Source: Tetradesmus obliquus
Lineage: Eukaryota > Chlorophyta > Chlorophyceae > Sphaeropleales > Scenedesmaceae
Direction: 5' to 3'
NCBI GenBank assembly: GCA_030272155.1
Contig: CP126191.1
Location: 7,772,501-7,836,500 of the forward strand
Length of the DNA stretch: 64,000 nucleotides
Positions 41,341 through 59,077 of this stretch are shown here, one piece after another. The notes beneath the pieces were generated by a model that had not been told where the DNA came from, ran no database searches, and saw nothing but the letters and a program-made list of their open reading frames with translations. Every line of letters starts with the position of its first letter. Position 1 is the stretch's first letter. The position numbers were made by a program, and so were the translations under genes.

Positions 41341-44300
41341 CAGCCACCTTGTCTCCGACCTTGCTCCAGCACACCTCAAAGATGCCGCCGTCCGCCTGCT
41401 GACTGCGCAGCAGCTTGCCATCTGCCACGTTCCAGATGTGCAGCATGTTGTCGAAGGAGCCGGAGGCCATGAGCTTGCCGTCCGGTGAAAAGGCCACGCT
41501 GTAGACTGGCTCTGTGTGAGCCTCCAGGCTGTGCAGCAGCCTGCAGGAACAGCAGCAAAATAAGGTCGGCAGGTCAGTTTTGGTTGCAGGGCACACCGGC
41601 GCAGCCTGGGTAACATGCAAATACTGGAAGGATCCTAGGCGATGAGCTGCTGCTGAACAAAACAAGTGCGGAGGGCAGCCGCAGGCATCCCCGCAAAATC
41701 AGATGTGCTGCTGCACTGCACTGCCCAAGGTGGTTTGGGACTGGCTCCCTCCTCTGGGTTCAACTCTTGACAATGCTGCACTGCGCACTCCACACCTTGC
41801 CAGCAATGACTTTTACTTGGTGCAGACCACGAGGCTACAGCAGCAGCACAGCCAACACAGGCCAGCCCTCAGCGCCACACCACATAAATCACGCACGCAC
41901 ACCCTACACCAGCACGCCGCAAAACCGCAAGCCGCCGCCACGCACCCCTGCCCCTCCACATCCCACAGCTTGACCGTCGCATCAAACGAGGCCGTCGCCA
42001 GCAGCAGCTGCTGGCTGGGGTTGGCGCTGCCTGGCCCTGTGGGGCTCCACTTGATGGTGTAGATCTCCTTGGTGTGCTGGCTGAAGCTGGCCACGGGCTC
42101 GTCTCGCGCCATGGACCACACCTTGGCGCTGGTGTCGTCGCTGCAGGAGGCCAGCAGCTTGGAGGAGGGGTTCCAGCGGATGGCGTTGACCTGAGTATGA
42201 GGGTGTAGGTGTGTGGCAGCCAGCAGCGCAGGCGTGAGCAATGTTTGCAACGATGTTATAAGAGATGCGCAGATGAAGGGGGATACATACCTGCTGTGAC
42301 GCCACAAGACGGCACAGCCAGGTGTGCTCGTGTGCAGATGGCGGGGCTGTGGTGTGCGAGCAACAGCAGCTGCAGCTGCGAAAAGAACATGTGCCCAGGG
42401 GCACCCGCAATGCCTGCAAGCACACACAACCACAGGCTGCTCCAGCACAGCACTCGCGTACAGGCTAGCCACAGCCACGTCAGCACCCAACTCATTGCAT
42501 GGCCAGCCTCAGCCCCAGCCTCAGCCTAGCGTGCTGCGCACAGCGCACCTCATCGGTGTGTCCTGTGAAGGTCTTGATGGGCCGCGTCTCGCCCAGGCGG
42601 CACACGTGGATGGCCTTGTCGGTGGAGCAGGTGGCAAAGGTGTTGTTGTTGCGCCAGTCCACATCCAGCGTGGGAGCTGCAGGGGTGCAATACAAAAACA
42701 CATACAATCAATCACAGGGCAGGCAACCACAGGGCAGGCATGATGGGACCCATGATGCACTGCAGCACATGCAAGGCTTGGGCCACATATGCGGGCTTAT
42801 GCACTTATGCGCAAAGAGCCCAGGTTATGCACATGTTGTTGCACGCATCCAGCGCCCCACCCTGCAGAGCTGCACCACACACCTCAAGCTGCACACACAC
42901 AAACACACAGCGCATACACAAACACACAGCGCATACACAAACACACAGCGCATACACAAACACACAGCGCATACACAAACACACAGCGCATACACAAACA
43001 CACAGCGCATACACAAACACACAGCGCATACACAAACACACAGCACACACACAAACCCAGCACCAGGCTGCACGACACACATGCTGCACTTGGCGCACCA
43101 GGCCCTGCTGCCTGCTTGCTGGGCGCCTCCGCAGCGCAGCTCACCCGAGTGGAACTCGAACTGCTGCTTCACGTCGCCCGTCTTGGCGTCCCACACGATG
43201 GCCGTCTTGTCCACGCTGCCGCTGAGCAGCATGTCGCCCTTCTTGCTCCACTTGAGGCTGAAGATGGGCCCGTTGTGGCGCTGCAGCTTCAGCTTCAGTG
43301 CGCCTGCGGCAGCAGAGGGGCACTTGGGTAAGTTTGTCCTTTTACATGCAAGTAACAGCACTACGCTGGCATCTTGAAAGGGCAAACTGCTGCGTGGCTA
43401 GCCGCCTGCAGGCCAAAGCACGGTCAGCAGCTGCAAAAAGAGGTCCAAAACACACAGACCCTCCTGTTGCTGCTGCTACTGCTACATGCAAGGCTGCTGC
43501 ATGTGCATGCAAGACCAGGCAGCGCTCACCCTCCCGCGTCCACACGCGCGCCATGCCATCATAGCTGCCGCTGGCCAGCAGCGAGCCGTCGTGGTTCCAG
43601 TCAAGCGTTGTCACGTCCTTGGGCTTCTCACTGTCTGCCGCCTGGTGGCGCAGCACCAGCGCCTTGCTGTGGTCGGCGCCAGCTGACAGGTCCCAGATGC
43701 GGGCAGTGGCATCGCCAGAGCTACAGTTGTGTGGTCGAGGACGTGGGCAGTGCAGAGGCGGCGGGCAGACGGCGAGTAGAACAGGGCAGGTATGAGATGA
43801 GGCCGCAGAACATGCATGCAGGCAGGGCATCAGCAGCAAGGCTGAGTAAGCTTAGCAGAAGGGGCCGGGCAAGCAGGCACAGGAACAGCATGAGGCCGCA
43901 GCACAGCTGTAGCAGGAGCCACACCGCAGCACAACCTGCCCACATCAGCATGCTGCTGATGCTGACCAAATTCAAGTCGCGCACGTGATGTCTGAGAGCA
44001 CAGCAACCATGCGCACTATCCTGCTGCTGCTGCATGCCTTCCTTCAAGAGCAGCTCACCCAGAGGCCAGCAGCAGCTGCGTGGGGCTCCAAGCGCATATG
44101 AAGACCTCATTGTCGTGCCCCGACAGCGTCTCTACATTGATGACGTCAACGCCACCAGGCGGCAGCGGCGCTGCTGCTGCAGCAGCTGGTGCTCCTGACG
44201 CTGCTGGCGTGTCTTCCTCCATAGCAGCTGCCTCATCGGCAGCACCAGCAGCTAAGCCGTTCGGAGGCAACTCCTCCTTGACTTGCTGCTGCTGCTGCTG

Positions 44301-45038
44301 CGAAGGCGCTGCGCCAGCTGCTGCTGCTGATGATGTGCCTGCTGCAGCAGCTGCTGCTTTGACGCGCTCCTGCTCCTGCTGTGCTGCACGCTCACGCTTG
44401 CGCTCTGCCCTGTCTCGCGCTTTTTCTGCACGTTCCTGCCGTGCTGCGGCAGCTGCAAAGCAGCACAAGACACACGCACGGCGTTTCAACCAACAGCATA
44501 TAGCACCATGTTGTAGACAGGTGTTGGTGCAGCTTTCATGGCAGTCGTCTTGCACTCTTGCACTTGAGCAGAGCTTGCAGGAGAGGGCAAGGAGCAGGTT
44601 GCTTTGCGCGCATCGCGCCACACAGCATGCTGGCTGACGCCTCTGCGGCACATCCTCTGCTGCTGCGCACCTGCGCTCTTCTCTGCCTGCTTCTCCTTCT
44701 TCTCCAGGGCCAGCATGCGCAGCTCATCCAGGTCCTTTGTGATGATGTCTCGAGGGTCCAGCAGCGCAAAGTCGGCATCCACCTCGCCATTTTCCTGCAA
44801 GCAGAGACACGGCACAGCCACCAGCTCTGCTTACTGCGCATGGCAGCAAAGTGCAGCTACACCACAGCAGCTGCGTTGTGCCTGCACTGCCGTGCGCTAT
44901 GACCAGGAATGCAAGAGCGGCTGCTTGCTGCTGATCACAGATGGCTGAGACAGCAGCTGGGTGTTAGCAGCAGGACCAGCAGTGCACCTGCTGCAGCTGC
45001 TGTACCGCACGTGCCACACGTGCTGGTGCTGGTGCTGC

Positions 45039-45071
<33 letters not shown>

Positions 45072-45415
45072 ATCAACACAGCCAGATCCACTGCTGCTTA
45101 CATCGATGTTTGCCTCTGCTTCCAGGTACTGCAGGCCTTTCTGAACGTAGGTGACCAGAGCCCCAGGGGGCACGAGGTTTGGGTCTATGTCGCATCTGTG
45201 CACTTGGCTCTCGTGCGCAAACGTGAAGGCAGAGTGGTGGAACCCTGCAGGAGATGTGCACCAACCAGCGTGCTTAGCAGTCGTGCAGAAGCAGCCCAAC
45301 CGCACGAGCAGCTGATGTGCTGCTGCTGCTGCTCACCTGACTCCTGCAGGTATCTGTAGATAAGGTAGTTCACCTCAGTGCTGCTAAGTACCCCAGCTGC
45401 AGTTCCCTTTGCCAT
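41294..45415 (-). CDS. HOS15: LisH-WD40 corepressor subunit, TBL1/TBLR1/HOS15 homologue
   Basis: Component of histone-deacetylase corepressor complexes in the nucleus; the plant homologue HOS15 also serves as a CUL4 substrate receptor. Nine exons on the minus strand: 45415-45337, 45244-45102, 44794-44671, 44452-44059, 43720-43530, 43303-43145, 42676-42549, 42190-41946, 41540-41294; phases match, 569 residues. N-terminal LisH motif: [18 protein letters not shown]. Then an F-box-like segment ([20 protein letters not shown]), a charged coiled coil ([20 protein letters not shown]) and a Gln/Ala linker. A WD40 propeller follows (from about 235) with [78 protein letters not shown] and [16 protein letters not shown]. 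It ends VMVVDLRR. Intron 6 carries a 19-bp minisatellite, and the last codons are tandemly copied downstream. Confidence 0.92.
42893..43060. repeat. 19-bp minisatellite in an intron of the WD40 gene
   Basis: About seven to eight near-perfect copies of acacaaacacacagcgcat. It keeps several reading frames open on both strands but lies wholly within the intron between exons 6 and 7. Confidence 0.9.
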
Positions 45416-46361: not shown

Positions 46362-49352
46362 CTAGGTGCGCCTGCTGCGCTTGGCAGCTCGCGTGCGCAT
46401 CTTCAGTGGCAGCTCTTCCTGCACCATTGGCTGCACAGCTGGCTGGCCAGCGCCCTGCTGCTGACCTGGCGGCTGCGCTGGTGCAGCTGGTGGCACAGCT
46501 GGATGCTGCTGCTGCAGCACAGGTGCTGGCGCACCAGCAGCTGCTTGGTCAACCAGCTGCACATCTGGCTGCTCATGCGGGCCTGGCACATACTTCACAA
46601 GCACCAGCTCACACTCCCCATCCTCAAGCTGCTGCAGCTGAGCGTCCACATCATCGTCTACCTCTGCCCCTGCGTCCACCACCTGCACATCATCACCGTC
46701 ATCTTCTTCGTCGCTCGCGCTGCCAGCTGCTGCACAGCCTGCCTGCTGCATCATCTTGCGCAGCGGCTCCGGCATGCCTGGCTGCGTTGGGCACACGATG
46801 TCCCAGTGCTGCAGCAGCCGCAGCGCACGCAGCAGCTTCACAGCCGCAGGCGTTGGCTGTATTGTCACTGCAGCTGCTGCTCCTGCTGTTGGCCCTGTCG
46901 CCACACCGCCCTGCTGCTCTGCCTTGGCTTCTGTGTGCAGCTGCTGCAGCAGCGGCACAAGCTCCTTGCTCCTCACTTCTGGCTCCCATGACACGCCCGC
47001 AAAGTTGCAGCGCATGTAGCTGGCGCACAGCGCCTGCAGCTGTCGTGGGTCGAAAGGCTGCACAGCAACCTGCCAGGCGGCCAGCTGCTGGTCTGGTGGG
47101 ATGAAGCCACACGCCTCCTGGATCAGCTGCTGTGTGGCTGGGGCCAGTGCCTTGAAAGCGGCAGAGGTACAGTCTGGGGCTTGGCTGCGAGAACCTGCCT
47201 GTCCTGCAAGCAGCCTGGCCGCTGCAGCGGTGGCACCTCCCTGGTCTGCATTGTGAAGGTCTGTGTCAGTTGGCTGGCCATGAGAAGATGCGATGCGGGC
47301 GGCTGCAGCAGCAACCTGCCGTGGCTGCTGCAGGCTTGGCACTGCTGGCGGTTGAGGCTGAACGCTTGTGGGTGGGGATGATGGTGGTGGCGGGGGTGGC
47401 GGCACACAGGAGACGGGCAGCTGCATTGACCTTGGCGCAGGCAGTGGCCCTACCAGGTCCCCCTGCTGATGCGCCTCTACTGCCATCTTGGCTGCTGCTG
47501 CCAGCTGTGTCAATGACAAGCTGCCCCAGCCGGCAGCAGCAGCAAGCTGCAAGGTGCTGCTGTTGGCCATGAGCCACGCTTGCATGGAGTTGTCACCGCA
47601 CTCTGGTGCGTCAAGGGTGCTGCCAGGTGCTAGCTGCAGCTTGCTGGCAGCCGCCAGCTGTTTCAGAGCCCTGCCTGCATTTACCAAGCTGCGCTCTTTG
47701 CTGTCCCACTTGCTGCGCCTGTTCTGCTGCTCAAGGCTGTGTGCAAGGCTGCTGACTACACCTGGTACTCCTGCTAGGCTGGTGCGCACATCTGTGGTTG
47801 CTCCTTCAATCAACAGTGCAAGCGCTAAGCCAGCTGCCTGTTGAGGCGCTGTTGCATGTGTGCCATCGCAAACATCACGGAGCATCACCGGCTGCAATGC
47901 CAATGCAGCCAACCTGTTGGCTAGGTTGTCCCTGAACTTGCCTGCATCAGGGCGGCCACTTGCTGCCGACATGAGCATTGGCACAACATCCTTCAGTTGC
48001 TGATGGTTGTCTTTCCTTGCAGGTGCCAGCTGGGTCAGCACCCATGCCGCCTGCTCAACAGCTATTTGCTTCAAGGGTACAGCAGCACCTGCTTGCTTCT
48101 GCACTTCCAGCAGCGCAGCCACCAAGTTCTTCAGGAAGCGTGCACAGTCGACTCTGCTGCTGCTTGCTGCTAGCGATGTTGCAAAGTCGTGTGCTGCCTG
48201 CATTGGCGTTGCTGCGCCTGGCAGCAGAGGAAGCAGCCCCTCTGCAAGTGCAGGCTGTGCAATGACCATGCTGCAGATAGTCTCTTCCTTCTTGCTGATT
48301 GCTGCTGACAGAACATGTAATGCCCGTTCTTGCAGGGGTGCATCCTCTGTCTGTTGCAGAGCCTGCACCAGCGGCACTACAATGCTGATCTGGCTTACCA
48401 TCTGCCTGCGCATAGAGGTGTCTGCATTCTCGAATAAGGCGGCGAGGGCCCGGGCCGCTCTCCATGCTGCGGCTGTGCTCAGGGCTGTCTGCTGAAGTGA
48501 CGCTGTTGGTGGTTGCTTGCACCTCATCACCGCCAGCCCAACCAGCCTGGGCACTGTCAGTCGTGCTGATAGCAGATTCTGAGCTGCTTGATGTCCTGCT
48601 TGTGCAACTGTGTGCAGCAGCTGGGCTGCAGCATCTGCGAGGCACACTTGTGACCCTCGGTGCAGCAGCAGCTCTGCTGCACAGCTGAGTGCTGTGCAGG
48701 TCTTGGTCAACGCAGCCGCCACACAACTCTTTGCAGAGCGTGCTTCACCGCTGCTGCTGCTTACTGTCCAGCGAGCCAGCACCACTGCTGCTGCAGCTGC
48801 GCTGTCGCCAACTTGAGCCATTTGGTGTACAAGGCCGTTTAGGATACCAGGGTGCGACATGATGTGCTGTAGGTGAACTCCATTGTTGATTGGTGTCTCA
48901 AAATGTATGTCTATGTTCTGGCCAGCAAGCGTCAACAAGAGGTGCACTGCTGCCTGTGCTGCTGCACCAGTGCCCTTCAGCAGCTGTGCTACTGCCGACA
49001 ATGCTGCCGCCTGCTGCAAGAAGTGAATAGCAATGGAGGACTGGCTTCTGGTTAGAATGATCAAAGTGCTGGCAGCTGCTGCTGCCGCTGCAGGTGTTGT
49101 GTGCGACAGCAGACTAACCAAGCCTTGCACACGCACGGGTGTTGGCGTGTTGGTTGAGTTGGTGTTGTTGCTGATGAGAAGGGCAAGCTCAAGCTGTGCA
49201 CTGTTTGCTTGTGCCAGCGTCACAGCAGGGTGTTTCAGCACGCTCAGGAGTTCATCAATCCTGTGCCGCTCCTGCTGCTGCTGTCCAGCCGACCTCCATG
49301 ACAAGGGTGCCATCATGTGGCTGTACACCTGGGCGTTGCAGAGGCCCAGCAC
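46362..49352 (-). CDS. Large armadillo-like helical protein with conserved C-terminal module (paralogue 1)
   Basis: I do not recognise a named family. Intronless frame of 996 residues. Residues about 30-640 are helical, Ala/Leu-rich repeats of about 40 residues with armadillo-like phrasing ([45 protein letters not shown]). A Pro/Gln-rich linker (about 660-700) includes a run of Pro. A conserved module lies at about 745-880: CGFIPPDQQLAAWQVAVQPF, LQALCASYMRCNFAGVSWEP, VKLLRALRLLQHWDIVCPTQ and PEPLRKMMQQAGC. An acidic stretch with DDVQVVD and EVDDDVDAQLQQLEDGE follows. The end is basic (KMRTRAAKRSRRT), a likely nuclear localisation signal. The neighbour at 50848-53982 is co-linear along the whole length. 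A nuclear scaffold role is inference. The start may be internal (Met13 or Met14), because a CAG-GT donor-like sequence lies near codon 8. Confidence 0.8.
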   Translation of the reverse strand: MLGLCNAQVYSHMMAPLSWRSAGQQQQERHRIDELLSVLKHPAVTLAQANSAQLELALLISNNTNSTNTPTPVRVQGLVSLLSHTTPAAAAAAASTLIILTRSQSSIAIHFLQQAAALSAVAQLLKGTGAAAQAAVHLLLTLAGQNIDIHFETPINNGVHLQHIMSHPGILNGLVHQMAQVGDSAAAAAVVLARWTVSSSSGEARSAKSCVAAALTKTCTALSCAAELLLHRGSQVCLADAAAQLLHTVAQAGHQAAQNLLSARLTVPRLVGLAVMRCKQPPTASLQQTALSTAAAWRAARALAALFENADTSMRRQMVSQISIVVPLVQALQQTEDAPLQERALHVLSAAISKKEETICSMVIAQPALAEGLLPLLPGAATPMQAAHDFATSLAASSSRVDCARFLKNLVAALLEVQKQAGAAVPLKQIAVEQAAWVLTQLAPARKDNHQQLKDVVPMLMSAASGRPDAGKFRDNLANRLAALALQPVMLRDVCDGTHATAPQQAAGLALALLIEGATTDVRTSLAGVPGVVSSLAHSLEQQNRRSKWDSKERSLVNAGRALKQLAAASKLQLAPGSTLDAPECGDNSMQAWLMANSSTLQLAAAAGWGSLSLTQLAAAAKMAVEAHQQGDLVGPLPAPRSMQLPVSCVPPPPPPPSSPPTSVQPQPPAVPSLQQPRQVAAAAARIASSHGQPTDTDLHNADQGGATAAAARLLAGQAGSRSQAPDCTSAAFKALAPATQQLIQEACGFIPPDQQLAAWQVAVQPFDPRQLQALCASYMRCNFAGVSWEPEVRSKELVPLLQQLHTEAKAEQQGGVATGPTAGAAAAVTIQPTPAAVKLLRALRLLQHWDIVCPTQPGMPEPLRKMMQQAGCAAAGSASDEEDDGDDVQVVDAGAEVDDDVDAQLQQLEDGECELVLVKYVPGPHEQPDVQLVDQAAAGAPAPVLQQQHPAVPPAAPAQPPGQQQGAGQPAVQPMVQEELPLKMRTRAAKRSRRT

Positions 49353-50847
49353 ATGACATTAAGCATCAAGAACCAGTTTGCAGTCCTGACAACAAGAGTA
49401 GGAGCAGCAACACCTCACGTTGACCCGGTCATGCAGGCTGCATAAGCATAGTGCTGCGAGTGCACAAGCCAATAACAGTGCATGCTGATGCGGTGACCGG
49501 CTGCAAATTGTTCCTCACATTTTGCAATATGCCGCCTTGGTGGCCCATTGCACTTCAGACGCTGCGTCTTGCAAGAGGATGAGCCTTTGACAGAACTACA
49601 GCTGCTGCCTCGAGCTGCGACCCAGACAAGCACAGTGCACTTTAACGTGCAGCGCGGGACGCTACGTAAGCTTTACGTCAAGCGAATAGTCGAAGCAGAA
49701 GTCGCTGTTGCTCGAGAAGCGATGGCTCAGACTGAACCGTTGACGTGTGCAAACACCTTTGACTGAGTCCACAAGTGAGGTGCGCTTTTTCGTCAGGCAT
49801 AAGCTGAACGCAATGTTTGGTTTGCATCAAGCGCTCAGCGCCGTTGGTTTTAGCTGAATAATGTTGTCATATGCAGTTCAAACCCACTAGGGTTTGACGC
49901 ATTCGCACCGTATGATCTTTGACTCAGGTGCACGGACGATCAGATGCTACGCTACCAGGCAACATTCACGACACTTTTGGTATCATGTTGGCCACCAAAT
50001 AGCTTGCCAGCAACGTGCTGCCATGTCATGACGTGCCAGCAGTTCCACCTGGTATCACTGATAAGCAGAGTGGGCCGGTTGCATTAGGTTCAAATGACTT
50101 TTTTGACGATGATGTGACCGCTCAACATACTCAAAGTATCAGGCAGAAGTGTTTTTTGGTCCTACATAAGAGAAGGACAAGGAATCGCCTCAGTGATAGC
50201 CGCTTGGGCCAAGTGGGACCAGGCAACAGGACTTGGTTGACGGCAAGCAACAAATCTCAGTAAATTCCACGTCGGGTGCAGTTAGATTTGGCATTGGAAC
50301 GTGCAGATTTTACAACCTGAGTGGCCAGGGTTAAAAACTATGACTTGCTGAAGCAGGCAAACGTGTGACCCATAAAACTCAACGACAGGAGCAGACCCTG
50401 CTGTCATCACTGTCCACGACAAACACTCCTCAACACAGCGTGCATGCATACTATGTAGTACATGATCACATCTGGCTGCAGGTGCAGCACCTCCGAGGAT
50501 TCATGGTGGTGCACCTGGCACAACATGCCAGCCAGCTGGTAGACGAGACTGTAGCCCAAACTTGTGCAGTTGCGGCTGCTGTTTCATTTTGCACATGCTG
50601 CAGATGCCAATGCCACAGGTGCAAGTGTTGGTATGAGAGTGTACAGAGAGCAGCGGCAATAGCCCTGCTGCTGGCACAATAATCTTTGACGACGCCCTAC
50701 ATGATGTCGGGGTTCTCAATGCTGGCGGCAGCTTCCACCCTAGCAGTGTCACTGGCATCACCTGCAGCTGGGCCACCTGGCATCACCTGCTGCAGCGGCA
50801 GCCACCTGCTGCTTGACAGGCTCTGCGCCAGGTGGCCCAGCTTCATG
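49353..50847. other. 1.5-kb spacer between the ARM-like paralogues
   Basis: Holds the promoter of gene 1 and the 3' region of gene 2. TTACA at 50310-50314 (TGTAA on the minus strand) is a candidate polyadenylation signal. No supported ORF. Just after the gene-2 stop, ggtgatgccagg-type and ccacctgg-type short repeats occur. Confidence 0.35.
50310..50314 (-). terminator. TGTAA candidate polyadenylation signal of ARM-like gene 2
   Basis: TGTAA on the minus strand, about 530 bp after the stop codon. Confidence 0.3.
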
Positions 50848-53800
50848 CTACTGGTGCTGCTGCTGCTGCTGCTGCACCACAGGTGCTGGTGCACCTGTTG
50901 CGCTCTGGTCAACCACCTGTACACCTGGCTGCTCATGCTTGCCGGGCACATACTTCACAAGCACTAGCTCCTGCAGACCATCCTGAAGCTGCTGCAGCTG
51001 AGCATCCACATCATCATCCACCTCTGCAGCTGGGTCTGTGTCCAGCACCTGCACGTCATCACCTTCACCATCGCTGCTGGCGCTGCCGGGTCCTGCACAG
51101 CCTGCCTGCTGCATCATCTTGCGCAGCGGTTCTGGGATGCCTGGCTGCGTGGGGCACACGATGTCCCAGTGCTGCAGCAGCCGCAACGCACGCAGCAGCT
51201 TCACAGCTGTAGGCGTCGGCTGTATGGTCACCGATGTGGCTGATGTCCTAAACACTACCTGTTGCTCTGACTTGGCTTGAGTGTGCAGCCGCCTCAGCAA
51301 GGGCAACAGCTCCTGGCTGCGCACTGCTGGCTCCTTGGACACCCCCCAAAAATTGCAGCGCATGTAGGTGGTGCACAGGGCCTGCAGCTGCAGTTGGTCA
51401 AAGGGCTGCACAGCAACCTGCCAGGCGGCCAGCGGCTGGTCTGGTGGAATGGAGCCACACGCCTTCTGCGTGGCGTGCGCGATAACACTTGCGGCAGCTG
51501 GGCTGTCTAGTGTTTGGCTGCAGGAGCCTGCTAGCCCTGCAATCAGCCTGGCCCCTTTGCAGAGCTGCGTAGCAGCAATAGCAGCAGGATCGCCTTTGGC
51601 TGCACGGCTGGCACTTGCATCACCTGGCTGGCTTGCCGGGAGTGCTTGGCCCGCGGTGGCCTCTTGCTTCACTGCCTTGCCTGCAGTGGTCCCTTGCTTT
51701 ATTGCCTTTTCTGCACTGCTCTCCACCTTTACTGCCTTGCCTGCACTGGCCTCCTGCTTTTCTGTCTTGCATGCACTTATTTCCTTCTTCAGTGATTGCA
51801 GGAATGTTGGCGGTGGAGGTAGATGACTGAGTAGCTGCTGCTTCCAGTTCCTCTGGACCCTTCCACCTGCATGCGGCTCACCACGGCCTGGAGCAGACTT
51901 GGCCTTGCTCTCATGCTTGACGCTTGTCTGTGGCTGGCGCTGATCTCCTTGCTTTTGCTGTGACTGCCCCTCCTGGCATGGTCTGCCTTGAGGATTGCCA
52001 GGCTCGTGCTGCTTCTTGCGCTCATGTTCCTGCAAATGGCTTGCCTTGCGTGCTGTGGCCGCCAGCTGCACCACTGACAGGCTGCCCCAGCCACCTGCAG
52101 CTGCGTGCTGCAGCGCTCCACTGTTGGCTGCAAGCCAGGTTTGCACCAAGGCTTCTTTACAAGCATGCATGCTTGCAGGAACGGCTGATGCTGCGAGCTG
52201 TAGCTTGCTGTCAGCAGCCAGCTTCAACAAGGCTGATGTTGCTGCCTCTGAACCTGTCTGGCAAGCGCTGGCGCAGTTGGTTGGAGAGGCACAGCCATGC
52301 CTGCTGGACAGCTCCACGTGGCGCGCCAAGCCGCACACAACATCTGCACAGCTCGCCATTGTCAAGCGCTCCTTAGCATCCACTGACTGCACTAACATGC
52401 ATAGTGCACTGGCAGCTGCTTCCTGAGCCTGCAGGGAGCCACTGACCTCGCCTGCAACTGCGCCTAGCTTGCTAGCTACTGCACTTCTCAGCTTGCTGAG
52501 CCGTTGTTCTGTGTCCCTGCTGGTTGCGCGCAGCAGCGGTGCCACAGCGTCTGCCAACGACAGCTGCTCGTGCCCATTGTCACACTTTGCACCGGTCAGG
52601 TTGGTCAAGATCCACGCTGCTTGTTCAGCAGCTGCTGACACCCCCGACTGCGTAGCTGTACCGCTGCATGCTGCACCTAAGCGTGTGTCTGTCAATGCTG
52701 TCATCAGGCTGACAGTCAGCTGTGCCCCCTGGTTGCCCGTAACGTTGGCTGCTAGTGTGATTGCTGCATCTTGTGCTGCCTCAAGCGAATGCGCACCCCC
52801 AGGCAGCAGCATGTGCAGCAGCCCATCTATCAGGTCAGACTGCGACAGGATTAAGCTGCACATCCTGTCATTTCCTTGACTCGCTGCAGCCTGCAGCACA
52901 TAAAGCGCTCGCTCTTGCAGGACTACGTTGTCTGTGCGTTGCAGAGCGGCCGCCAGTGCTGCCACAACGCCAGCATCCACGGCTATGCGCCGGCAAATGC
53001 TAGCGTCCGCGTTAGACATTATGTAGCACAGTGCGCAGGCTGCCTTCCCGGCTGCAGTTGTTGCTGCCAGCTCAGCTAGCTGCAGCCCCTGCTGTGGCTG
53101 CTTACTGTGGTCCAAAACCAGCCTCAGCAACCTCACAACAGCCTTGTCCGCCCCTGCCACTGCTGTAGCTTTCTCACATCCTGCCTCCGCCACTGTGCAC
53201 AGCAGCTGTGCTGCTGCATCTGCCAAATTGATGCGGGGGCCTTCCTCAGCGAGCAGGGCCACTACACCAGACAGGGCTGCACGATGCTTCATCAGCTGGG
53301 GTACAATGGCTGTGGCGTCGTTGACAGAGTGGCGTGCTAACATCAGCACTGCAGCTGCTGCTGCTCTGCCGCTGCCCCTGGTCAGCTGGTTCACCAGGCC
53401 TTCTACCACACCCTCATGTGACATGATGCGCTGGAAGTCATCTGGATGGCAGGCGGGTGCCTCACAGTGCATCTCAGGACCCATGCCTGCCAGAACCAGC
53501 AGCAGGTGTGTTGCTGCTTGTGCTGATGGGTTGCTGTCTTGCACGAGACAGGCGCTGGCTGTGAGCACAGCGCCATCCTGCACCAAGTAGATGGATGTGC
53601 CTGCACGGTTGGTGCATATGCTGCTCAGGATGTCGGCAGCTGCTGTTGCTGCTGCTGGTGCGCTGTGATACAGCAGGCAGACCAGCGCCTCCAGGTGCGC
53701 AGGGGTCGGCTCATTGGAAGGATCAAGCTTGCTGCTGAAGAGCTGTACCAGCCTCTGTTTGGCAGCATGTGCCTCGCTGTCCTTCACATCCTGTTGTAGT

Positions 53801-53982
53801 AAACATCCTAGGACCACATCTATGATGTGCAGGCGCGTGGGGTGCCGCTGCTGCTGTTGCTGTGGGTAGGACAGGGGCCGAGGCTGTGGCCCTATCATGT
53901 TGTTATTGCAAGAAGGAAACCTGCCTATCTGATGGTGTACCTGGTGACAGACATCAGATGGTTGGGTGGCAATCAGCAGCAC
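50848..53982 (-). CDS. Large armadillo-like helical protein with conserved C-terminal module (paralogue 2)
   Basis: Tandem paralogue of the gene at 46362-49352, also intronless, 1044 residues. The helical repeat region (about 55-660) aligns co-linearly but is strongly diverged (LADAAAQLLCTVAEAGCEKA, LQERALYVLQAAAS, EQAAWILTNLTGA). The linker (about 670-830) differs completely: Lys/Glu/Gln-rich with a run of four decapeptide-like repeats (KQEASAGKAV, KVESSAEKAI, KQGTTAGKAV, KQEATAGQAL). It contains several psi-K-x-E sumoylation-type sites (VKHE, VKVE, VKQE). The C-terminal module is nearly the same as in paralogue 1: CGSIPPDQPLAAWQVAVQPF, YMRCNFWGVSKEP, VKLLRALRLLQHWDIVCPTQ and PEPLRKMMQQAGC. 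An acidic stretch with EVDDDVDAQLQQLQDG follows. It ends in Gln/His repeats without the basic tail of paralogue 1. The start could be an internal Met (MIGPQPRPLSYP). Function unknown. Confidence 0.8.
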   Translation of the reverse strand: MLLIATQPSDVCHQVHHQIGRFPSCNNNMIGPQPRPLSYPQQQQQRHPTRLHIIDVVLGCLLQQDVKDSEAHAAKQRLVQLFSSKLDPSNEPTPAHLEALVCLLYHSAPAAATAAADILSSICTNRAGTSIYLVQDGAVLTASACLVQDSNPSAQAATHLLLVLAGMGPEMHCEAPACHPDDFQRIMSHEGVVEGLVNQLTRGSGRAAAAAVLMLARHSVNDATAIVPQLMKHRAALSGVVALLAEEGPRINLADAAAQLLCTVAEAGCEKATAVAGADKAVVRLLRLVLDHSKQPQQGLQLAELAATTAAGKAACALCYIMSNADASICRRIAVDAGVVAALAAALQRTDNVVLQERALYVLQAAASQGNDRMCSLILSQSDLIDGLLHMLLPGGAHSLEAAQDAAITLAANVTGNQGAQLTVSLMTALTDTRLGAACSGTATQSGVSAAAEQAAWILTNLTGAKCDNGHEQLSLADAVAPLLRATSRDTEQRLSKLRSAVASKLGAVAGEVSGSLQAQEAAASALCMLVQSVDAKERLTMASCADVVCGLARHVELSSRHGCASPTNCASACQTGSEAATSALLKLAADSKLQLAASAVPASMHACKEALVQTWLAANSGALQHAAAGGWGSLSVVQLAATARKASHLQEHERKKQHEPGNPQGRPCQEGQSQQKQGDQRQPQTSVKHESKAKSAPGRGEPHAGGRVQRNWKQQLLSHLPPPPTFLQSLKKEISACKTEKQEASAGKAVKVESSAEKAIKQGTTAGKAVKQEATAGQALPASQPGDASASRAAKGDPAAIAATQLCKGARLIAGLAGSCSQTLDSPAAASVIAHATQKACGSIPPDQPLAAWQVAVQPFDQLQLQALCTTYMRCNFWGVSKEPAVRSQELLPLLRRLHTQAKSEQQVVFRTSATSVTIQPTPTAVKLLRALRLLQHWDIVCPTQPGIPEPLRKMMQQAGCAGPGSASSDGEGDDVQVLDTDPAAEVDDDVDAQLQQLQDGLQELVLVKYVPGKHEQPGVQVVDQSATGAPAPVVQQQQQQHQ

Positions 53983-54944: not shown

Positions 54945-56307
54945 TCACTTGCCAAGCTGCTTCTGGTTAGCCCTGAGCACGCTGCCTGGGCTGGGATATG
55001 GCCGCTGCTGAAACAGGGGCCCGCCCGCTGTCGTGTCGGCTGCGCTTGGCTGAGCTCCCTCCAGCCCTGTGCTCCATCCGCCGCGTGGGGCATCAGAGTA
55101 AGCAGACTGCACGCAGCATGAAACATCGTAAAGCAGCAGTCAAGCAACCCAGATATGTCCTGAGAGCCAGATCTTTCAAGCTTTGCCTGTCCTGCAAGGC
55201 CAGGCCAGGCAACTCAACGCAATGCACGGCACGCCATCTTGTGGTACATCAGCGTAGCACATCCTTGCACTGGACTGCTGTTTGCACTTTGTCCAACTAT
55301 CAGTGATTAGTAGCACAATCAATCGCCACCTCAGCAAAAACTGCTGCGCTTCGGCGCTGTGTCAGGCCTGCCTCGCTTTCTTGCAAGCCAACAATTCCCC
55401 TTGCATTCCTGCAAGAAAGGTTTGACATACAGATCAGCATCTGCATCTGCCAGCTCACCGGGTCCATGGGGTCCAGCTCATCCCGCTCCTTGGCGCGGCT
55501 CCTGCCCTGCCTCGCCAGCGCAGCGTTGCGCGCCGCCTGCCGCTCAGCAATCTGCTCCTGGCGGCTCTTGCGCGGGCCCCGCGCTTCATCATCATCCGCA
55601 ACATCAGGCGCTGCATTCACCACAGGCCGCCGCTGCGCCGGTGCTGCTAGGTGCGCGGTGACTGCTGCAGCTGCCCCTATGCCTGTACTGCCAGCAGCAG
55701 TGTTGACAGCAAAGGGCCCAACATCCCTGTAATAGCCCAGGCCTGAAGCATCCTGCTTGAACACGTAGCCTGGTTTGGCACCCTCAAATGCAGCAGCAGG
55801 AATGAAGGCTGCTGCACTTGCTGCTGCTGCAGCTGGCGGTGCTGCGCCTGCAGCTGTGGGGCGCTCCCACTGTGTCAGGCCCAGCTGCGCGTTGCAGTAG
55901 TACCTGCAAGGCACGCCGCAGCACATGTTATCACAACACACCAGCTTCACATCTGGACCGTGAGCTTTTATGAATAGGACATCAGCCACATGGCACAGCC
56001 AACGTCCACATCAGACTGGCTGTTTTCGTGATGATGCACACAACACGCATGCACAGGCGTACATGACGCAGCAGCAATCTCCAGCGTGGCGCACAGCTGG
56101 AAAGCAGCATCACAACAGGGCTGTGACACTCACTTAACGCCGCTATTTGGGTCCACTGCCTCCACCCAGCCGGCCGGCAGTGCTGCTGCAGGCCGCTCCC
56201 AGGTGCGCTCCCCAGTGGCCGGGTTGAAGTAATATACGCGGCTGTACGTGGGATCCACAGCAGCATGCCAGCCAGCTGGCAGATCAGGCTGTGGCCCCAG
56301 CGGCTGC

Positions 56308-56345
<38 letters not shown>

Positions 56346-58147
56346 GGGTGCTGCAGCTGCCACTGCAGCAGGTTCTGGTGCTGCTGCGGGGGCTGCAGCA
56401 GGCTCTGCAGCAGCTGGCGCTGCAGCAGCAGCGCTGCTGCTGTCATCATCAGCCTTGATTATGCCCCGCTTGATGAGGCGGGCTCTCAGTGCGGGTGGCA
56501 GGTTCTTGTAAGCATCGGCCCCAGCAGCGCCGTCAGCACCACCTGCTGCTGCAGCAGCAGCCGGCTGCTGCTGAAGCTTGTCAGGCTCTGTGCCAGGGGC
56601 ATGCTCCTCGGCATCATCATCATCACCAGCAGCAGCAGCAGCAGCCTGAGGTGCAGCAGCAGGAGCAACTTTGATGACAGGCGCAGCAGCGTATGAGGGC
56701 CGCCGAGCTGGAGCTGCTGCTGCAGCGCCACTTGCTGCTGCCGCACCGCCTGCTGCTGCTCCTCCATTTGCAGCTGCGGCAGCAGCAGCATATGCTGCAG
56801 CTGGGTCTACTGTGGTGCCTCTGTACTGCTCATACCCTTGGTACCCGCTGTACTCATGGCCGCTGTAGCCGCCGCTATAATAGCCCTGCTGCTGCTGCAT
56901 GTATGCTTGAGGGTCGTGTCCATAACCTGCTGCTGCTGTATGCTCATGCTGCTGCATGTGCTGCTGCTGCTGCATGCCGGGTGGCCCTGGAGGCACCAGC
57001 CCGCCCTGCTGTGGTGGCCCAGGAGGCTTGCCAGGCGGCCCAGGAGGAGCACGCGGAGGCCCAGGGGGCCCTGGCGGCCGCTGCTGCTGCTGCTGCTGTG
57101 GTTGCCCCTGTCCTGCCTGCTGCTTGCTGGCTATGGCAGACATGACTGCGCTAGGAGGCATGTAGTTGCTCCAGTCGCCGGCCCCCGCAGCGCCAGGCCG
57201 CTGCTGCTGCCGCTGCTGCTCCTGCTGGCTGCTGCCGCTGCCAGGTGGGCCTGGCAGTGCTGGCATGCTGCTGCTGCTGGCCGCTGGAGCGCTGCTGTGC
57301 AGGCCGCTGCTCATTTTCAGCAGCTTCTCCTGTGGTCAGCATGGTGCATGCAGAACACAGAAAGACATATGTTAAGGTACACACCACCATGTGCCGCTGC
57401 TGACAAAGGGCCATTTGTTGAGTGCAAGCTAGTCATTTAGGCTGCAGCGAGCCAGTGCTGTGCATCTTGCTGGCCTCTATAGCCCTTGAAGCCTGCTGCC
57501 TTGAGGCATGGCGACCTGCACTGATGCGCTGAGACCCCGACTGCCACTGCTAGATCCACATGCCAGCTGCCGCCTGTCAGCTTTCTGCCACACCTTCATT
57601 TGTGCCAGGCTCTCTCCTGTGCCTTGAGCCTCCTCTGGCTCATTCCTCTTTTGGCCACTGCAGGCGATGCAGAAAAAGCACAGCTCAAGAACAGCACACG
57701 AGAACCACAGAAGCCTGTACTCATTGTAAGGCATGTGATGCTTTAGCTTCAGCTCACTGCGTGCGGCATGCAGTAACATAGCATTGCATCCACACACATC
57801 ATATAGCAGTGCTGGCCAGCAGATAGTGAGCACCAGCATCACATCCACGACTCTTGTTCATGATGCCCCCACCTGGTTCGTGCCAGCTGCTGCCGCATGT
57901 CTTCCTCCTGCTGCTGCAGCATCGCCCGGTTGGCCTGCTCCTCCAGTGCTGCTGCCTCCTCTGGATCAAGCGCTGGCTGAGCAGCAGGCCTGCTGCCGGG
58001 TGCAGCAGCTGCGCTTGCAGGAGGCCCTGGGGGAGGCCCAGGGGGGCCAGGTGGGGGCCCAGGGGGTCCAGGGGGCCGTGGCCCGGAGCCACCTGCTGAC
58101 AGCCACGCTGGCAGTGTGGCCCCACGGCCCCTGCCCATGCCAGACAT
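54945..58147 (-). CDS. PQBP1: Polyglutamine-binding protein 1 homologue (spliceosomal WW protein)
   Basis: Nuclear splicing factor that binds U5-15kD (Dim1) through its C-terminal peptide. Five exons on the minus strand: 58147-57873, 57657-57594, 57329-56134, 55903-55459, 55106-54945; phases match, 713 residues. The N-terminus is [20 protein letters not shown] followed by a Pro/Gly tract. Exon 3 is a long Gln/Gly/Pro/Ala-rich region with Tyr-Gly repeats. Two tandem WW domains follow at about 460-530: [20 protein letters not shown]...TWERP and [20 protein letters not shown]...TQWERP. The second is split by intron 3. Then come a basic segment ([17 protein letters not shown]) and DELDPMDP. The last exon reads [51 protein letters not shown]. 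This is an almost complete match to the human PQBP1 C-terminus with its U5-15kD-binding YPSPGxVL. The protein is more than twice the human length, and human PQBP1 has one WW. Confidence 0.93.

Positions 58148-58986: not shown

Positions 58987-59077
<91 letters not shown>

Follow-up and report, generated by a model that had tools for sequence, protein, structure and literature searches.

Two large tandem frames on the minus strand

The window analysed here is the whole stretch of 64,000 nucleotides from the green alga Tetradesmus obliquus (GenBank assembly GCA_030272155.1, contig CP126191.1, positions 7,772,501 to 7,836,500), and position numbers refer to this window. It carries two adjacent large open reading frames, P0001 (gene 1) and P0002 (gene 2), each with a long N-terminal helical region, a linker, a C-terminal module and an acidic tail (Table 1). 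A first-pass annotation, made from the letters alone, had described two same-strand frames of 996 and 1044 codons as colinear paralogues, and this was borne out: both lie on the minus strand, with a gap of ~1.5 kb between them, and BLASTP aligned them colinearly. Their N-terminal parts are 37% identical (643 columns) and their C-terminal parts 67% identical (263 columns), which supports the tandem paralogy that had been described. The next-longest stop-to-stop frame listed in the window, excluding frames running off its ends, has 465 codons. The GTG starts of both frames follow the bacterial convention; in-frame ATGs occur first at codons 13/14 of P0001 and codon 29 of P0002, giving proteins of ~984 and 1016 residues. 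Nonsynonymous (dN) and synonymous (dS) divergence, estimated by NG86, was 0.61 and 1.39 over P0001 residues 1-640 (dN/dS ~0.44, with dS close to saturation), and 0.16 and 0.45 over residues 701-950 (dN/dS ~0.36), in both parts the pattern of evolving protein-coding sequence rather than of chance frames. The 5′ flanks of the two genes showed no convincing shared sequence (best E 0.24). TGTAA, an algal poly(A) signal, lies 450 and 534 nt past the stops, and is uninformative at a background of 0.59 per kb per strand.

Table 1 Features of the P0001/P0002 gene pair in window coordinates
Feature	Coordinates	Strand	Remarks
Open frame 1 (P0001)	46362..49352	minus	996 codons counted from GTG; first in-frame ATG is codon 13 (49316)
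P0001 N-terminal ARM-like helical region, residues 13-635	47448..49316	minus	Assigned by alignment to the P0002 ARM model
P0001 C-terminal module, ~residues 736-875	46728..47147	minus	Recurs at C1:5.328 Mb and C12:4.993 Mb
P0001 acidic tail, residues 881-950	46503..46712	minus	SIM-like VQVVD flanked by Asp/Glu; function putative
P0001 basic C-terminus KMRTRAAKRSRRT	46365..46403	minus	NLS-like, putative role; absent from P0002
Homogenised tract, gene 1	46504..47223	minus	78.6% identical to gene 2 at the DNA level (728 columns); candidate conversion
Open frame 2 (P0002)	50848..53982	minus	1044 codons counted from GTG; first in-frame ATG is codon 29 (53898)
P0002 N-terminal ARM-like helical region, residues 29-650	52033..53898	minus	Structure model, profile and fold matches
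30-bp minisatellite, 4 copies, P0002 linker	51657..51777	minus	Carries two of four psi-K-x-E motifs
P0002 C-terminal module, ~residues 831-968	51079..51492	minus	Alignment with P0001 and unlinked copies
P0002 acidic tail, residues 969-1038	50869..51078	minus	SIM-like VQVLD with acidic flanks; function putative
Homogenised tract, gene 2	50864..51556	minus	Candidate conversion

The N-terminal region is probably an ARM-like solenoid

The armadillo (ARM) fold is a right-handed solenoid of three-helix repeats of ~42 residues each. The structure model of the P0002 N-terminal part was essentially all-helical, with 33 helices of at least four residues, and was weak (mean predicted local distance difference test, pLDDT, 60.5); ARM proteins headed both lists of fold matches obtained with it, and these matches include importin-alpha, beta-catenin, Vac8 and designed ARM proteins. 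An importin-alpha-like repeat signature, AAWILTN, was found in P0002 at residues 455-461, with N replaced by Q in P0001, and the other WxxxN match, one per protein, lies in the TWLAANSG/AWLMANSS segment, close to where the helical region ends. Whole P0001 and P0002 matched no Pfam family at E≤1, Arm included, scans of both proteins against Pfam and NCBIfam yielded no family above its curated cut-off, and searches of PDB sequences gave weak matches only (best E 0.067 and 0.068). The long helical repeat region of the first-pass annotation is thus likely, on the weak model and the fold matches, to be an ARM-like helical solenoid of ~620 residues, although it does not reach the Pfam Arm cut-off.

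The C-terminal module recurs in unlinked genes

The genome searched was the window's own assembly (104.66 Mb, 17 contigs). The C-terminal module was found at two further, unlinked loci: at C1:5.328 Mb in a 336-codon frame (P0003) and at C12:4.993 Mb as part of a 689-codon frame (P0004), neither with a detected ARM part. The alignment of the four copies has 29 invariant columns, and identity is 30-35% in the two unlinked genes; because the module recurs in unlinked genes, it is taken as a real domain. Weak rows were left out of this family, comprising nine (E 0.0026-0.073), four (E 0.050-0.63) and five (E 0.048-0.92). The earlier claim of a conserved module therefore holds in that the domain is genuine, but its conservation is less than the near-identity of the two tandem copies suggests, as synonymous sites are alike too. 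That it belongs to no recognised family is supported by searches with the module only, in which none of the four copies matched Pfam at E≤10 and a PDB profile search gave nothing below E=0.93. The LLxxLxxL...LRK spacing of the module had suggested an LW domain; this candidate (TFIIS N-terminal/Med26, PF08711) was rejected, with a probability of 0.4% in hhalign against six members from the same genome and no Pfam match.

The linkers are variable, as had been noted, being proline-rich in P0001 and lysine-rich with a 30-bp minisatellite in P0002. Four psi-K-x-E motifs occur in the P0002 linker, compared with 0.15 expected (0 of 2000 shuffles). In the tails, P0003 carries VIEVVDLTADCE, which we take to resemble SUMO-interacting motifs (SIMs), and VQVVD (P0001) and VQVLD (P0002) stand at the aligned place, so that three of the four module genes have an acidic SIM-like motif; the P0004 piece ends before that place. 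A basic terminal stretch (KRSRR), resembling a nuclear localisation signal (NLS), ends P0001 only, and P0002 stops earlier. The TAG stop of P0002 directly follows a CAG (Gln) tract, and in the genome search the match to the P0001 tail extends beyond this TAG (50700-50860).

We tentatively read P0001 and P0002 as a tandem pair from a lineage-specific family of ARM-repeat scaffolds, with the roles proposed below for their parts, at a probability of about 0.4. A number of results weigh against this reading. The P0002 ARM model (pLDDT 60.5, predicted template modelling score 0.42) was built on a two-row alignment, its Foldseek matches have query TM-scores of at most 0.35 and root-mean-square deviations of at least 10.8 among the 50 matches listed, and HEAT proteins (importin-beta, AP2) are also among those listed. 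Pfam Arm (PF00514) stayed below its gathering score (best 11.2 vs 20.6 bits, E=0.41), DUF6372 outscored it in one member (E=0.069), and the importin-alpha profile match contains no stretch that passes the limit alone. The structure model of the C-terminal module was useless (pLDDT 38.3). As for the motifs, P0001 lacks psi-K-x-E altogether, and of the four in P0002, two fall within the minisatellite and cannot count as independent. Shuffles reproduce the SIM-like motif in 87 (P0001) and 126 (P0002) of 500 cases, so neither protein is enriched in it; enrichment is weak in P0003 (27 of 500), and the P0004 piece contains no such motif.

A rather unlikely alternative is that the pair encodes organelle-targeted alpha-solenoids that bind RNA or nucleoids, like lineage-specific candidates in Chlorophyta. 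In the sections of PMC13126933 drawn on here, 53 armadillo proteins (52 in the table) are counted among organelle candidates, and a tandem of seven alpha-solenoid paralogues without Pfam domains is described in Chlamydomonas reinhardtii. The ARM part of P0001 is indeed basic (isoelectric point, pI, 9.1), but that of P0002 is not (pI 6.3; 43 Lys and Arg, 50 Asp and Glu), and the acidic tails and NLS-like C-terminus do not point to the plastid. Pfam PPR profiles matched neither P0001 nor P0002.

The C-terminal tract of the two genes has probably been exchanged

The DNA identity of the pair is concentrated in the last ~730 bp (Table 1); elsewhere, BLASTN reported one 94-bp stretch only (72%). Among columns with the same residue, codons were identical in 131 of 171 cases over P0001 residues 701-950, compared with 116 of 241 over residues 1-640 (Fisher p=4.8e-9); with the tract set to residues 736-950, the count was 120 of 154 against the same ARM part. 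The ARM count might be depressed by chance matches, the alignment there being Ala/Leu-rich and 40% identical; the comparison was therefore restricted to runs of identical residues, and the difference persisted in runs of at least three (111/139 vs 55/112, p=5e-7), four (93/112 vs 32/61, p=3.3e-5) and five residues (86/104 vs 16/30, p=0.0027). A two-breakpoint fit gave 48% identical codons for residues 17-740 and 79% for the rest, which includes the first 16 residues, with a log likelihood ratio of 21.4 compared with at most 10.7 in 200 shuffles; the grid used to scan the shuffles was coarser, which gives the data a slight advantage. GC content at third codon positions was 0.665 and 0.673 in the tract and 0.564 and 0.584 outside it.

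The similarity of synonymous sites suggests exchange between the copies rather than functional conservation alone, and the codon-identity excess suggests an old gene conversion or unequal exchange spanning the module and the acidic tail. Unusually strong purifying selection that includes synonymous sites is an unlikely substitute for conversion. The module is under constraint, as its 30-35% identity in two unlinked genes attests, but codon identity is high through module and acidic tail alike (0.68-0.84 per 25-column bin) and falls at ~residue 740. The longest antisense stop-free run in the tract is 200 codons for gene 1 but no more than 115 for gene 2, so that a shared overlapping frame is not the explanation for the likeness.

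Long uninterrupted ARM frames are a habit of this genome

Both frames are open over ~1000 codons, as the first-pass annotation had observed in calling them intronless, but this is not special. The Pfam Arm genome search, in which 150 of 239 candidates were scored and distinct frames were counted by open-frame length, found ten further ARM frames with 500 codons or more (2022, 1996, 1472, 1232, 906, 805, 767, 577, 542 and 533), so that long uninterrupted ARM genes are a habit of this genome; P0001 and P0002 were not among its matches. Retroposition, offered earlier as the origin of the intronless state, gained no support, as no intron-containing parent was found genome-wide at E≤1. The search with the P0002 ARM part returned only the P0001 and P0002 loci at that limit; this six-frame search ignores introns and may miss short or diverged exons, and it did not reach the other ARM genes of the genome, so its negative does not cover remote relatives.

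The absence of introns was read from the open frames only, and it is improbable, though conceivable, that the frames hide short in-frame introns or that the pair is a decaying or untranscribed duplicate. Frame-keeping donor/acceptor pairs are present in both frames, and P0002 stops before P0001, with the alignment passing its TAG; against this stand the ~1000 open codons in both copies and the dN/dS of ~0.44 in the ARM part and ~0.36 in the C part.

It is highly improbable that the pair represents a diverged, importin-alpha-like nuclear import receptor: a profile match (E=0.0011), fold matches to importin-alpha and an EQAAWILTN repeat in P0002 favour this, but only one AAWxLTN repeat is present, with N changed to Q in P0001, the WxxxN groove array typical of importin-alpha was not found in either protein, and no importin-beta-binding (IBB) domain was detected in the whole proteins (no Pfam match at E≤1).

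Proposed roles of the parts

Under the scaffold-family reading, the groove of the ARM solenoid would bind extended peptide segments of partner proteins, and the solenoids of the two copies would have diverged so that each recognises partners of its own. The shared docking end would consist of the C-terminal module with the acidic tail, and conversion together with purifying selection would keep it similar in both copies. The proteins may plausibly act in a nuclear setting through SUMO-type interactions, given the basic C-terminus of copy 1, the lysine-rich linker of copy 2 with its psi-K-x-E motifs and the SIM-like motif that three of the four module genes carry. Consisting of short motifs only, the SUMO link is a lead and not a result. 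A bolder and quite doubtful extension is a receptor system that diversifies and homogenises, in which the tandem ARM bodies would diverge to recognise distinct ligands and conversion would copy between them a nuclear, SUMO-linked effector end that stand-alone adaptor genes elsewhere in the genome also carry, the module being a new protein-interaction domain of one algal lineage.

Comparison with known systems

Many lineage-specific alpha-solenoid families are described in Chlorophyta in the parts of PMC13126933 used here, with 70% singletons among the new candidates. The C. reinhardtii chromosome 10 tandem of seven in that paper resembles the present pair, as far as its description goes, in consisting of tandem paralogues with a predicted alpha-solenoid, no Pfam domain and expansion in one species; CATH places its members in the ankyrin class, and they share 68% identity across 85% or more of their length, whereas P0001 and P0002 look ARM-like, are about 40% identical in the solenoid and carry an extra C-terminal module. 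Importin-alpha shares with the pair the fold matches and one importin-like repeat (in P0002); P0001 and P0002 differ from it in having no detected IBB domain, no W/N array and an extra C-terminal module.

Within the same genome, tandem ARM frames of 1996 and 1472 codons lie at C1:3125664-3135865 (in part covered by loci L047-L066) and are 54% identical over 863 columns. They resemble P0001 and P0002 in being long, uninterrupted, tandem and paralogous, and differ in matching Pfam Arm strongly (E 4.6e-139 and 7.1e-102). In the stretch read, the second frame has kinase-like and RING-H2 Pfam matches, and a similar Cys/His-rich, RING-like end was seen by eye in the first. BLASTP of P0001 and P0002 against frames from the 20 loci L047-L066 gave a best E of 0.15; these loci cover three of the ten long ARM frames (1996, 1472 and 767), the first two cut to at most ~1040 codons per locus, and at L056, L059, L060 and L063 the frame compared differs from the Arm-matching frame.

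No relatives were found in viral contigs or prokaryote genome contigs, neither collection being meant to hold algal genomes. The literature searched yielded no paper on the P0001/P0002 family, which does not show that none exists, and the text of PMC12571836 contains no mention of armadillo, ARM, ankyrin, intronless or retrogene. Lineage-specific repeat genes are fairly ordinary in green algae, and the pair would add to the many such solenoid genes an orphan family of ARM-like scaffolds whose C-terminal module is undescribed. It also carries a warning, in that high identity between tandem paralogues may reflect gene conversion and not domain function; unlinked copies are the proper basis for defining a conserved module.

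Surroundings in the window

Rfam had no match in the window. The pair is flanked on one side by a WD40 gene (41813-45400, minus), apparently with introns, whose WD40 frame is at 41813-42508 and which we take to be TBL1/HOS15-like, and on the other by a gene for a WW-domain protein (55300-57335, minus). A 19-bp minisatellite (8.4 copies, 98% matches) lies near the WD40 frame at 42897-43056, and a perfect CAG tract of 27 copies (58993-59074) lies within a 250-codon plus-strand frame.

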